Origin: Butyricicoccus sp.
Lineage (GTDB): Bacteria; Bacillota; Clostridia; Oscillospirales; Butyricicoccaceae
Assembly (NCBI GenBank): GCA_017886875.1
Contig: JAGHIZ010000103.1
Coordinates: forward strand, 62,001-126,000
Reading direction: 5' to 3'
Length of the DNA stretch: 64,000 nt
Shown piece after piece: positions 7,046 through 13,617 of the stretch. Under the pieces are notes generated by a model. That model made no database searches and was not told the origin of the DNA. It was given only the letters and a program-made list of their open reading frames with translations. The translations under genes and the position numbers were made by a program. The stretch's first letter is position 1, and each line of letters starts with the position of its first letter.

Positions 7046-7501
7046 TTATAACAAGGTTTTCTGAGCCTCAGAGCAAAATTCACTTGCAACTTTTTCGTCC
7101 TGCATAACAATAAATACAGTGTCATCACCGCCAAGCGAACCTATAACACGTCTATCACGCATAGAGTCAATAGCCATAGCTGCGGCTTGACCTAAACCGG
7201 GTAAAGTTTTAATAACAACCATGTTTTGTGCATAACTAATTTCAGTTACACACTCCTTGAATATATTTCTAAGACGGTTGGTGAAGCTGTTTTCAACTTC
7301 AGAAGTTGCAACCGCATAACGATATTTTCCTGTTGTAGATGACAGTATCTTAATCAGTCTAAGCTCTTTTATATCACGAGAAACAGTTGCTTGAGTTGTG
7401 GTATAACCTAAATCTCGTAAATGCTCTGAAAGCTCTTCCTGAGTTTCGATTTCAAACTGGTCTATTAAATCCAGTATTTTTGCCTGCCGTTGGAATTTCA
7501 T
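7046..7501 (-). CDS. argR: Arginine repressor ArgR/AhrC
   Basis: Arginine-sensing hexameric transcription factor of 151 residues. The N-terminal winged helix covers about residues 1-70, with TTQATVSRDIKELRLIK as the recognition helix region. The C-terminal domain binds arginine and makes the trimer; its typical GSLGGDDTVFIV lies near residue 125. The ATG overlaps the nadK stop by 4 nt (ATGA), so the two are probably translationally coupled. No arginine biosynthesis genes are in the window, so its targets lie elsewhere. Confidence 0.93.
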   Translation of the reverse strand: MKFQRQAKILDLIDQFEIETQEELSEHLRDLGYTTTQATVSRDIKELRLIKILSSTTGKYRYAVATSEVENSFTNRLRNIFKECVTEISYAQNMVVIKTLPGLGQAAAMAIDSMRDRRVIGSLGGDDTVFIVMQDEKVASEFCSEAQKTLL

Positions 7502-9177: not shown

Positions 9178-11049
9178 CTATCTACCTATTTTCTTTAAGG
9201 TGTATTTTGCTTTTTCTGCAATTTTTTCACTGTTTATTCCGCAATATTCATATACATGCTTTATATCTCCATGAGGCATAAACCTATTCCCTGTGTTAAA
9301 ACAAATCACTTTTTTCCCTGTTGCTATTCGTGCAACACATTCGCTAAAACTGCCATTTTGCACTACATCTTCAACAACTGCAATATATTTTGCAAAACTT
9401 GGCATTTGCTCCTTGAGTTTTTGCACAGATTGTTCGGAAATTTCATTTATTTTTATAACTTCAGTTTTTATGCCTTGGGTTTTAAGTATTTTAACAGCAT
9501 CTAAAACTTCATTTATCATTATACCATAACTAATAAATGTTATATCAGCTTTTTTGTTATCTGTATAAATGCACTCAAATATCTCATTTGCTGTATCTCT
9601 TTTAAATTCGCCCTCTGTACCTCTTGGGTAACGAAGTGCGACCGCACACTTTTCTCTATAAATAGCATTATAAAGCATTGATTTCAGTTCCGCAAAATTA
9701 GACGGACATAGTATTTTCATATTTGGAATTGAGCGTAAAAACGCAATATCAAAAACTCCATTGTGTGTCGCACCATCAGCACCAACTATACCTGCTCTAT
9801 CAAGTGCAAAAACCGCATGAATATTTCCATCTATTGCAACATCATGTATAAGCTGGTCATAACCACGCTGTAAAAAGGTTGAATAAATAGCACAAACAGT
9901 ATTTAAACCTTGTTTTGCCATGCCTGCCGTCATTGCTACAGCGTGTTCTTCAGCTATACCAACATCAAAAAAACGTTTTGGATATCTGTTTGCAAAGCTT
10001 GAAAGCCCTGTACCGCTTGGCATGGCGGCAGTAACTGCACAAAGTTTGTTATCTTGCTTTGCAAATTCACACATAGCTTTTCCAAAAACTGATGAAAAAC
10101 TTTTTGCATTTGATTTTGCAAGCAAACCTGTTTTAACATCAAAAGCTGAAACCCCATGAAAAGCGTCTGGTCTTTGCTCGGCTGGTGAATATCCTTTGCC
10201 CTTTTGCGTCACCGCATGAATTATAACAGGCTTTCTCATCTGTTTAGCTATTGACAATGTTTCACATATAGATTTTATATCATGCCCATCAATAGGCCCT
10301 AGATATGCAAAACCCATTTCTTCAAAAAGCGAGCTGTGAAGCAGTACAGATTTAACTGCACTATTAACTTTTGAAATACTTCTTGAAACAGGTTTACCTA
10401 GTGGTACATTATCAAAAAAGCGTTTAACTTTATTTTTAGCGTTTAAATATTGCGGATTTAATCTTAAATTTGCCAAATGGCGGCTAAGTGCACCCACATT
10501 TTTGTCAATCGACATATTATTATCATTAAGCACAACTATAAGCGGTTCTTTGCTATCTCCTGCACTGTTTAAAGCCTCATAAGCCATACCGCCAGTAAGT
10601 GCACCATCACCAATAATAGCCACAACATTATAGTTTTGCCCTGTTACCGTTCTAGCATGAGCCATACCAAGTGCAACAGATACCGAATTTGAAGCATGAC
10701 CACTTGTACAAGCGTCTGTTTTACTTTCTTTAGGACGTAAAAAGCCTGATATACCGTTGTATTTTCTTAAATTTTCAAAATCCTGTTTTCTCCCTGTGAG
10801 TATTTTATGAACATAGCATTGATGTCCAACATCATAAACAAGTCTATCAATTTTTGAATTAAACTCACGCTCAAGAGCAACAGCAATTTCCACAACACCC
10901 AAATTAGATGAAAGATGTCCACCTGTTTTAGAAACATTATCAACTATAAATTCTCTAAGCGACGAACAAAGCTGAGCAAGTTCATTATAAGAGAGCTTTT
11001 TTAGGTCTTTTGTGCTTTGGATATTGTCCAAAATTTTATATTTTTTCAT
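9178..11049 (-). CDS. dxs: 1-deoxy-D-xylulose-5-phosphate synthase
   Basis: First enzyme of the non-mevalonate isoprenoid pathway: pyruvate plus glyceraldehyde 3-phosphate gives DXP, using thiamine diphosphate. The 623 residues show the ThDP/Mg motif GDGALTGGMAYEALN (near residue 150), GHQCYVHKILTGR with its catalytic-site His, and DVGIAEEHAVAMTAG in the pyrimidine-binding domain. The C-terminal transketolase-like domain is complete. GAGGAG precedes the ATG. It shares the operon with ispA, placing entry and chain-elongation steps of isoprenoid synthesis together on either side of the OLE-like RNA and oapA. Confidence 0.95.
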   Translation of the reverse strand: MKKYKILDNIQSTKDLKKLSYNELAQLCSSLREFIVDNVSKTGGHLSSNLGVVEIAVALEREFNSKIDRLVYDVGHQCYVHKILTGRKQDFENLRKYNGISGFLRPKESKTDACTSGHASNSVSVALGMAHARTVTGQNYNVVAIIGDGALTGGMAYEALNSAGDSKEPLIVVLNDNNMSIDKNVGALSRHLANLRLNPQYLNAKNKVKRFFDNVPLGKPVSRSISKVNSAVKSVLLHSSLFEEMGFAYLGPIDGHDIKSICETLSIAKQMRKPVIIHAVTQKGKGYSPAEQRPDAFHGVSAFDVKTGLLAKSNAKSFSSVFGKAMCEFAKQDNKLCAVTAAMPSGTGLSSFANRYPKRFFDVGIAEEHAVAMTAGMAKQGLNTVCAIYSTFLQRGYDQLIHDVAIDGNIHAVFALDRAGIVGADGATHNGVFDIAFLRSIPNMKILCPSNFAELKSMLYNAIYREKCAVALRYPRGTEGEFKRDTANEIFECIYTDNKKADITFISYGIMINEVLDAVKILKTQGIKTEVIKINEISEQSVQKLKEQMPSFAKYIAVVEDVVQNGSFSECVARIATGKKVICFNTGNRFMPHGDIKHVYEYCGINSEKIAEKAKYTLKKIGR

Positions 11050-11072: not shown

Positions 11073-11645
11073 TTATTTAAGTTTAATTGGTAAAACAGAT
11101 AAAATCCTTCCAACAGCAAACACAATCGGAACGCTAAAACCTATTGCAAACCCCTTACCTATAGCCTTACCACCTATTGTCATAGCTGCTATTAAACCTG
11201 TTATAGTAAGTGATACAATGGTAGCGGGTAAAATTTGCATACCAGCAGTAAGTTTTGCGATAATTATAGCACCTGTAGCACCAGAAATAATACCTGAAAT
11301 ATCGCCTACAACATCATTACAAAAGCTAGAAACTTTATTTGCATTTCTTGAAAGCCAAACAGCTTCTTTTGCACCAGAAACCTTTCTTGATGCCATTGAG
11401 TGAAATTCCTTTTCAGTTGCAGATGTTGCTGCCATACCAATAACATCAAAAACAATACCAATGCTGATAAATATAAGTAAAATAACAAAAGCTAATATAT
11501 TACCTACATTACTTAGAGCCTCAGATGATATATAAGACATAGAAACTGAGATAAAAAAGCTAAGCACAGTTATAGTGCTAACCCATTTCCAGTTTACAAG
11601 TTTTAACAGATTAGACTTTTGTTTTTTATCAATCAATTTTAGCAT
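11073..11645 (-). CDS. oapA: OLE-associated membrane protein OapA
   Basis: A small integral membrane protein of 190 residues. At least four hydrophobic segments are visible: about 25-40, 46-68, 108-135 and 140-185. The soluble loop between the second and third carries ATSATEKEFHSMASRKVSGA. In databases this family is often named CorB-like Mg/Co transporter, but the location between ispA and dxs beside a long non-coding RNA matches OapA, the known membrane partner of OLE RNA. By that analogy it recruits the RNA to the membrane. The start is uncertain: AAAGGAG is only one base before the ATG at 11645, while an in-frame TTG at 11636 has normal spacing. The family assignment rests mainly on context. 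Confidence 0.8.
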   Translation of the reverse strand: MLKLIDKKQKSNLLKLVNWKWVSTITVLSFFISVSMSYISSEALSNVGNILAFVILLIFISIGIVFDVIGMAATSATEKEFHSMASRKVSGAKEAVWLSRNANKVSSFCNDVVGDISGIISGATGAIIIAKLTAGMQILPATIVSLTITGLIAAMTIGGKAIGKGFAIGFSVPIVFAVGRILSVLPIKLK

Positions 11646-11671
11646 TCTCCTTTTGTGTTATATGTAAACAA

Positions 11672-11695
11672 GGCTCGAAACCAAAGCTTCGAGCC
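11672..11695 (-). terminator. Hairpin between OLE-like RNA and oapA
   Basis: A perfect 8-bp stem (GGCTCGAA/TTCGAGCC) with an 8-nt loop is followed on the minus strand by TTGTTTA, a weak T-tract. It could end most OLE transcripts while letting some continue into oapA-dxs, or mark a processing site that frees the RNA from the operon. Confidence 0.55.
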
Positions 11696-11699
11696 AGTC

Positions 11700-12404
11700 C
11701 TTTATTAGATAAAAAAGGTGACAGCAGACAAGGTAAATCTTACGGCTTAGGTTCGGTTGGATTTCCCCACCACTTACCATGCGTCGCCGCTCTGGCGGTT
11801 TCCCTTTAAAAGGTGCGTCGATATGTTACCATATTCGAGACCGAATTGCCACTTAGTCCGTACTGCAATCCCTCATCTGCCCGCAAAGGACAGCCTAGGT
11901 GATTTCCACAACAGCCAACACGACCCTTAGCCTCTTTTGCAGGCATGGTTTCAAAATCAATTCCCTTTAGAGTATGGCCGTACTAAAAAGGGCAGGTACT
12001 CTATCCACCATGACCACTCAAGGCAGGCTACTCTGCACATAGCATTTAGGTCGATTTGTAGCACTTCGCTGTATATTGGATATACAGAAGGTTACTACAA
12101 ACGCCACCACACCACAATGCAGGTTTCACCCTGCCCCGTTGGACAGCCATCAATCAAATAAAGATGCTATAGGTGTCCGACAGAAAACAGGTCTCCACGG
12201 CAATAGGGACGGTATTTCATGCCATTGAAAAGCGCCCTAAAGCCTTAACCCCCAGCACCCACCCCAGACTGGGCGTAAGAAGCAAGCACCAGAGACTTCA
12301 TCGATGTGCCCTTTAACGGATTTTTAGGCCCGCTTTCGGGGACGTATGCACTGACTAGAATACTGCGTCACCTGCGTTAATTTGAAAAAAACGCATAGTA
12401 CACT
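11700..12404 (-). ncRNA. ole: OLE RNA (ornate large extremophilic RNA), approximate ends
   Basis: About 700 nt between ispA and oapA hold no convincing protein. The stretch is clearly more GC-rich than its surroundings and full of small helices, for example 12069-12087 (CTGTATA stem, 5-nt loop), 12119-12134 (GCAGG stem) and 11787-11798 (CCGC/GCGG). OLE RNA is known as a ~600-nt RNA found in anaerobic and extremophile Firmicutes next to oapA inside the isoprenoid operon, which is exactly this context. Known function: it forms a membrane ribonucleoprotein with OapA and other proteins, linked to stress and magnesium or energy responses. The 5' end is set by the promoter at 12411-12440 and the 3' end by the hairpin at 11672-11695. 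tmRNA, RNase P and group II intron signatures were looked for and not found. It is somewhat longer than the classic members. Confidence 0.82.
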
Positions 12405-12410
12405 TCTAAT

Positions 12411-12440
12411 AGTATAACAGATTTACATATATTATTTCAA
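12411..12440 (-). promoter_or_regulatory. Promoter of the OLE-like RNA
   Basis: On the minus strand TTGAAA (12435-12440) and TATACT (12411-12416) are separated by 18 nt, giving a start near 12404. It lies in the AT-rich gap after ispA, so the RNA, and possibly oapA-dxs, can be transcribed independently of the nusB promoter. Confidence 0.7.
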
Positions 12441-12491: not shown

Positions 12492-13379
12492 TTAGTTATT
12501 TCTAACTGAAAGTTTATCAGCTAACCAGATTAAAAATTCACTTTCTTCAAAGTCATTTTTGACTGCATTTATAGCGTTTTGAGTTAGCTCTTTAACCTTT
12601 TCTTTGCATTTATCAAGCCCGATTTGAGATGGAAAAGTTGATTTTTCCTTTTTAGCATCAGAACCAATCGGCTTTCCGAAAATCTCAGCATCACCTTCTA
12701 TATCAAGAATATCATCTTGTATTTGGAAAGCTAAACCGAGTGAATAAGCGTATTCTTTAGCTGCTTTTAATTTATTTTCATCTGCACCACCTAAAATACA
12801 GCCCATTAGAGTAGCACTTTCAATTAAAGCACCAGTTTTATATTTTTGCAAAATAACAAGCTCATCATAAGAGATTTTTTTATGCTCTGACTCTATATCC
12901 ATAACTTGTCCACCAATCATACCAAATACACCTGCATTTTTTGCTAGACAATTTGTTGCTTTTAGAATTTGCTCAGCAGTAAATTTTTCAAGGTTTTCTG
13001 GTCTTGTTGCAAGTGCAAAAGCTTCTGTTAATAATGCATCGCCTGCAAGCACAGCCATAGCTTCGCCATATACCTTATGATTTGTAGGCTTACCACGTCT
13101 AAAATCATCATTATCCATGCAAGGTAAATCATCATGTATAAGTGAGTATGTGTGTATCATTTCAAGAGCCACAGCAAATGGTAAAGCGTCCTTAGGATTT
13201 CCGCCTGAAAGTCTGTAAAACTCCATTACAAGAGCTGGTCTTAGACGCTTACCGCCTGCAAGTGCAGAATATCGCATAGCATTTATAATTTGCCCTTGAC
13301 ACTCTTTTTCACTTAAAAGCTGGTCTAAAAACTCATGTACATACCCTGCATATTCTGTTAAACGCTCGGAATGTGTCAT
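12492..13379 (-). CDS. ispA: Polyprenyl (farnesyl/geranyl) diphosphate synthase
   Basis: Condenses isopentenyl diphosphate with allylic diphosphates. The 295 residues contain the first Asp-rich motif DDLPCMDND (near residue 85) and the second, DDILD (near residue 220), which bind Mg and diphosphate. GGKRLRPALV, LAGDALL and a short-chain type FQIQDDILDIEG are typical of IspA. The chosen ATG at 13379 follows AGGAGGA located in the 3' end of xseB; an upstream in-frame ATG within xseB lacks a site. It ends just before the promoter of the OLE-like RNA. Confidence 0.94.
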   Translation of the reverse strand: MTHSERLTEYAGYVHEFLDQLLSEKECQGQIINAMRYSALAGGKRLRPALVMEFYRLSGGNPKDALPFAVALEMIHTYSLIHDDLPCMDNDDFRRGKPTNHKVYGEAMAVLAGDALLTEAFALATRPENLEKFTAEQILKATNCLAKNAGVFGMIGGQVMDIESEHKKISYDELVILQKYKTGALIESATLMGCILGGADENKLKAAKEYAYSLGLAFQIQDDILDIEGDAEIFGKPIGSDAKKEKSTFPSQIGLDKCKEKVKELTQNAINAVKNDFEESEFLIWLADKLSVRNN

Positions 13380-13380
13380 T

Positions 13381-13617
13381 TTATGCTTCCTCCTGTTTAA
13401 AATCCTGCTCATTTATTGTGCCATCAGCTTGTTCTGTAAGCAAAGTAACTTTTTGTTCAGCAGTCTCAAGCATTTTTTGAAGTTCGGCTGAAAGTTTCAT
13501 ACCTTGCTCAAAAAGTTTCATACTTTCATCAAGTGGTGCAGTACCTTTTTCAAGATTTATAACTATATCTTCAAGCTGGTTCATTTTTTCTTCAAATGAA
13601 AGCTGTTTTTTTGCCAT
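13381..13617 (-). CDS. xseB: Exodeoxyribonuclease VII small subunit
   Basis: A 78-residue helical protein, the partner of XseA in the single-strand nuclease ExoVII. SFEEKMNQLEDIVINLEKG is the conserved N-terminal helix, followed by PLDESMKLFEQGMKLS and a Gln/Glu-rich tail, as expected. The start at 13617 is chosen because GAGAGGTAA lies 7-8 nt upstream; another in-frame ATG at 13635 would overlap xseA. The xseA-xseB-ispA order is conserved in many bacteria. Confidence 0.93.
   Translation of the reverse strand: MAKKQLSFEEKMNQLEDIVINLEKGTAPLDESMKLFEQGMKLSAELQKMLETAEQKVTLLTEQADGTINEQDFKQEEA

Follow-up and report, generated by a model that had tools for sequence, protein, structure and literature searches.

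To our knowledge, few of the structured bacterial RNAs that still lack an assigned biochemical function are as large as OLE RNA. It has been reported in 2,822 Bacillota genomes, gut clades included (PMC11332333), and a cryo-EM structure is available from the mesophile C. acetobutylicum (PMC12286853). By analogy with published work in other species, OLE RNA would dimerise and be tethered to the membrane through OapA, which has a CNNM-like membrane domain but neither the CBS nor the CorC part of Mg2+ transporters; the particle would help adaptation to Mg2+, alcohol, cold and carbon-source stress. The locus described here, from a Butyricicoccus sp. genome, shares with the OLE ribonucleoprotein of Halalkalibacterium halodurans (OapA, OapB, OapC) a full-length RNA, oapA immediately 3' of it, an encoded OapB and an OapC candidate, the isoprenoid neighbours ispA and dxs, and a promoter of its own. 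It differs from the H. halodurans system by an extended P8 hairpin, by about 18 nt more in the P7 loop and by a terminator hairpin between ole and oapA. With the OLE RNA of C. acetobutylicum (577 nt, solved as a cryo-EM dimer, PMC12286853) it has in common a Clostridia host and the L4, L5.1, L6.1 and L9 strings, but exceeds that RNA by about 110 nt, most of them in P8. OLE variants 1 and 2, from the TANB77 and RF39 gut clades (PMC11332333), likewise occur in gut-type uncultured hosts; their P7-P8 region is shortened or missing and OapB and OapC are mostly absent, whereas P7-P8 is enlarged and OapB present in the genome studied here.

Judging from its sequence, the locus almost certainly encodes a complete, full-length OLE ribonucleoprotein module. 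An earlier note on the window (the whole stretch of DNA analysed, 64 kb) had placed a structured RNA of about 700 nt between ispA and a membrane protein upstream of dxs, and had identified it as OLE. The covariance search of the minus strand bore this out, with a match to RF01071 at 12387-11702 (686 nt, 464 bits, E 6.3e-134) that covered the Rfam model from end to end (positions 1-616 of 616) and lay above the gathering score of 50 bits. It was the sole cmscan match above threshold between 8 and 16 kb; the only other RNA family within the window was one tRNA-Arg, and a single OLE copy was found in the 2.79-Mb, 122-contig genome. The RNA is, as had been noticed, GC-rich relative to its surroundings (0.48 over the match against about 0.33-0.37 in flanking 500-base windows). 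The principal features of the locus are the following.

11702 to 12387, minus strand: OLE RNA, full length (RF01071, 464 bits, 686 nt by the Rfam model)
12492 to 13412, minus strand: ispA (farnesyl diphosphate synthase), upstream neighbour (NF045485, 352 bits)
9178 to 11049, minus strand: dxs, downstream neighbour (TIGR00204, 682 bits)
11073 to 11636, minus strand: oapA, 187 aa, TTG start (the listed open reading frame begins at 11645)
12411 to 12440, minus strand: sigma-A-type promoter of ole, TTGAAA-18 nt-TATACT (10 of 12 consensus matches; kept in genus relatives)
11672 to 11695, minus strand: intrinsic terminator-like hairpin between ole and oapA (10-bp stem followed by a T-rich tail)

On the minus strand the genes run xseA, xseB, ispA, ole, oapA, dxs, a TlyA-like gene, nadK, argR and recN, where ispA and dxs were named by profile match and the other genes recognised from their translations. 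This order resembles that of published OLE clusters (PMC12265935). The argR gene of the cluster lies at 7046-7501 of the window; ArgR has been named as an unpublished OLE partner candidate (PMC12265935). The sigma-A-type promoter that the earlier note had seen in front of the RNA corresponds to a promoter-like site at 12440-12411. Since its pattern by itself is not above chance in this region, we argue for it from conservation, the site being conserved in the genus relatives L005, L009 and L010. The terminator-like hairpin is also kept in genus relatives and in L012, and persists with a changed sequence in L016.

The RNA is indeed longer than the classic length of about 600 nt, as the earlier note had remarked, and the excess lies mainly in one hairpin extension.

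12049 to 12105, minus strand: lineage-specific lengthening of the P8 hairpin (covarying across six genus sequences)

This longer P8 side arm is the main local novelty of the locus. The extra length could be a neutral insertion without fixed structure: its sequence shows little conservation even among congeneric species, and no other segment measured varied as much in length as P8. We consider this unlikely, because the two long helices of the extension kept 83-85% pairing with double changes in 11 of 15 pairs, and none of 500 shuffles reached either overall value of the P8 structure (92% paired; double changes in 13 of 31 pairs, 11 of them within the extension). When the partner strand was slid, pairing fell to 29-48%, a control that is biased towards the P8 structure since the latter was derived from the same small alignment of six sequences. 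In one g6 subset the sequences were too alike and only 2 pairs had double changes; the P8 segments of L016 and L038 were identical. Leaving out misplaced anchors, P8 segments of at least 83 nt occurred only in the genera g1, g5, g6 and g14 and in two g10 species of Butyricicoccaceae, the others being mostly 15-74 nt long. Apparent segments of 93-126 nt in L004, L008, L063, L070, L074 and similar loci were discarded, the anchor having been misplaced in P7 (AGACCUG).

We take the structured extension to be a tolerated peripheral elaboration, because neither P7 nor P8 takes part in dimer contacts (PMC12265935) and both are missing from variant 2 RNAs. The P8 arm, outside the dimer interface, has grown in Butyricicoccaceae by a covarying hairpin. 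Alternatively, the covariation could reflect a functional additional arm through which a lineage-specific partner joins the OLE particle, but we rate this as rather improbable.

Besides P8, stem P3 and the expected dimer and protein sites were located on the RNA.

12339 to 12349, minus strand: P3, 5' strand, of the stem suggested to span the membrane (partner strand 11926-11915; 90% standard pairs, 43 unique sequences)
11915 to 11926, minus strand: P3, 3' strand (same P3 pairing analysis)
12296 to 12306, minus strand: J4a/5 strand of the OapC kink-turn (CAUCGAUGAAG), conserved string present
12190 to 12198, minus strand: J6/7 strand of the kink-turn (GUGGAGACC), present here and in 30 of 32 family RNAs
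11976 to 11979, minus strand: palindromic GGCC of the P9 apical loop (kissing-loop dimer contact), string present
11783 to 11788, minus strand: GGCGAC loop of the P13 region (OapB site region), present here and in 24 of 32 family RNAs

The kink-turn position was taken from PMC9723947 and PMC12286853 and the role of the P9-loop GGCC from PMC12286853 and PMC12265935, while the GGCGAC loop was placed in P13 by inference from the Rfam structure and PMC9723947. All eight strings tested were present in the window OLE, including the dimer-contact loops L4, L5.1, L6.1 and L9. Among the 32 family RNAs these four loops matched exactly in 31, 30, 32 and 26, respectively, the J4a/5 strand in 14 and the P12-region GGURAC in 26; such exact-string counts understate conservation.

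Stem P3, which cryo-EM models led others to propose as membrane-crossing (PMC12265935), was almost constant in length, its 5' strand segment measuring 22 nt in 97 and its 3' segment 13 nt in 83 of 117 OLE records (some of them duplicates). Over the 43 unique sequences with 22/13 segments, 11 hand-read pairs of P3 were standard in 90% of cases, compared to a mean of 62% (maximum 67%) after shuffling and 36-47% when slid. P8 in that set spanned 25 to 96 nt between the 5th and 95th percentiles, some anchors being misplaced. A fixed length combined with a free sequence is what a membrane-spanning stem would predict; a rigid spacer between two domains would predict the same.

The partner proteins were sought in the host genome, where the earlier note had suggested looking for OapB and OapC. 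OapB was recognised at G000:C114 from its position in a translation operon, between map and infA, and then matched the solved structure of OLE-associated protein B (7k9b, E 8.9e-10); the PF00467 KOW model recovered ribosomal L24 only and missed it. The result for OapC (YbxF) was more nuanced: an L7Ae protein encoded between rpoC and rpsL is a candidate, scoring above the cut-off of PF01248 and below the cut-offs of the NCBIfam L7Ae-like models. A YlxQ-like protein is encoded separately from this candidate. The genome also encodes one CNNM-CBS-CorC (MpfA-type) protein (G000:C118), in line with the none or one MpfA-type transporter reported for OLE-bearing species (PMC11332333).

Reduced-genome gut lineages have been reported with a shortened OLE and without OapB and OapC (PMC11332333), so that the locus might represent a decaying or reduced OLE (variant 1 or 2, or a pseudogene) with no full particle. 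This reading is very improbable: all 616 model positions were matched, P7 and P8 are enlarged instead of shortened, compensatory changes mark the evolution of P3 and P8, the RNA has its P13-region loop, and OapB and an OapC candidate are encoded. A complete module is again the reading that we retain.

From its sequence relatives and predicted fold, the neighbouring small multi-pass membrane protein is OapA, as the earlier note had proposed for 11073-11645. Translation probably starts at TTG 11636 and not at ATG 11645, because an ATG start would leave a spacing of only about 1-2 nt after the AGGAG, and translation of relatives begins at the corresponding TTG or GTG, conserved 3' of a Shine-Dalgarno sequence. 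No Pfam or NCBIfam model matched the protein, no other domain (CBS, CorC) was found in it, and a PDB sequence search gave no match. It carries DVVGD, an instance of the DxxxD motif that is described as distinctive of OapA and absent from CNNM domains (PMC11332333); both aspartates were invariant in 14 and in 46 sequences. Relatives stand next to OLE throughout Bacillota. Of the 541 that a profile scan confirmed in named genomes, the best 80 were kept, and at 71 of these the locus had at least four of five OLE sequence marks; several of the remaining loci end at contig borders. The AlphaFold2 model (46 sequences, pLDDT 85) is helical, and its best solved counterparts are CNNM domains (MtCorB 7m1t_A, Z 13.8, 2.3 A over 130 residues), the first unrelated fold following at Z 8.2. 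A CNNM-like fold is also the one published for OapA. OapA thus has its membrane-domain fold in common with CNNM/CorC (MpfA-type) Mg2+ transporters, and differs from them in its DxxxD motif and in having no CBS or CorC domain. That the protein is an ordinary small CNNM transporter, as the predicted fold and weak PF01595 matches of its relatives might suggest, can practically be dismissed, since OapA itself is CNNM-like, the motif reportedly missing from CNNM domains (PMC11332333) is present and invariant, and 33 of the 87 family genomes lack oapA and OLE alike.

Of six genus relatives, five carried OLE, as did 50 of the 87 Butyricicoccaceae genomes, and its occurrence agreed with that of OapA in 82 of the 87 (49 with both, 33 with neither). 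The partner missing from G005, G016 and G028 was put down to contig ends, and that missing from G093 probably to low completeness. In G015 (99% complete), oapA is followed by dxs (L177, G015:C99:20744-21298) and no OLE was detected; this oapA may truly stand without ole, or the assembly may have a gap. When six genomes were searched again for OLE there was no hit, a result that does not prove absence since no positive control gave a signal. CNNM (MpfA-type) transporter copies averaged 0.54 in OLE-positive and 1.92 in OLE-negative genomes of the family (p 5e-7, 87 genomes). As genomes are not independent, the value to lean on is that of the genus means (p 0.0045, 15 genera), which also ignores the tree. 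These counts agree with the published anticorrelation of OLE and MpfA-type transporters across Bacillota. Genomes of the OLE-less genera g2, g3, g7, g8 and g15 each encode two to four CNNM-type transporters, and the genes often form tandem pairs. Several MpfA-type transporters may cover the role of OLE in such relatives. OapB was detected in 35 of 50 OLE-positive and 6 of 37 OLE-negative family genomes, having been sought with one query sequence, so that g10 copies may be missed (1 of 12 genomes of that genus).

In genus g10, ole and oapA are separated. They lie 20 kb apart in G091 (L165/L166) and on different contigs in the other separated genomes: other genes follow ole in G094 (L173/L174) and G092 (L171/L172), with oapA-dxs elsewhere, and oapA-dxs is apart from ispA-ole in G087 (L167/L168). 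Both genes being kept after separation is consistent with action in trans. An apparent separation in G002 was rejected as a contig-end effect. In an Oscillibacter MAG, a gene for a 779-aa lipoprotein-like product, probably solute-binding, stands between ole with its terminator and oapA (L112:492-2831).

The earlier note had regarded OLE in a gut-type spore former as a surprise. The host is as described, a Butyricicoccaceae genome that encodes spo0A, and the occurrence is real; the distribution is not news, because OLE has already been published from anaerobes, mesophiles and uncultured gut Bacillota (PMC11332333, PMC12286853). A literature search found OLE RNA and Butyricicoccus never mentioned together, which is weak evidence that Butyricicoccaceae had not been singled out before. 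With this locus a known system gains one more member, an ordinary and complete one, and the comparison yields testable points. The length of P3 hardly changes, whereas that of P8 is free to vary; within one family, the absence of OLE is accompanied by more MpfA-type Mg2+ transporters; and one genus retains ole and oapA despite their separation. Butyricicoccus pullicaecorum (the name being inferred), available as a DSM strain, has this system too and could be used as a model organism for the gut.
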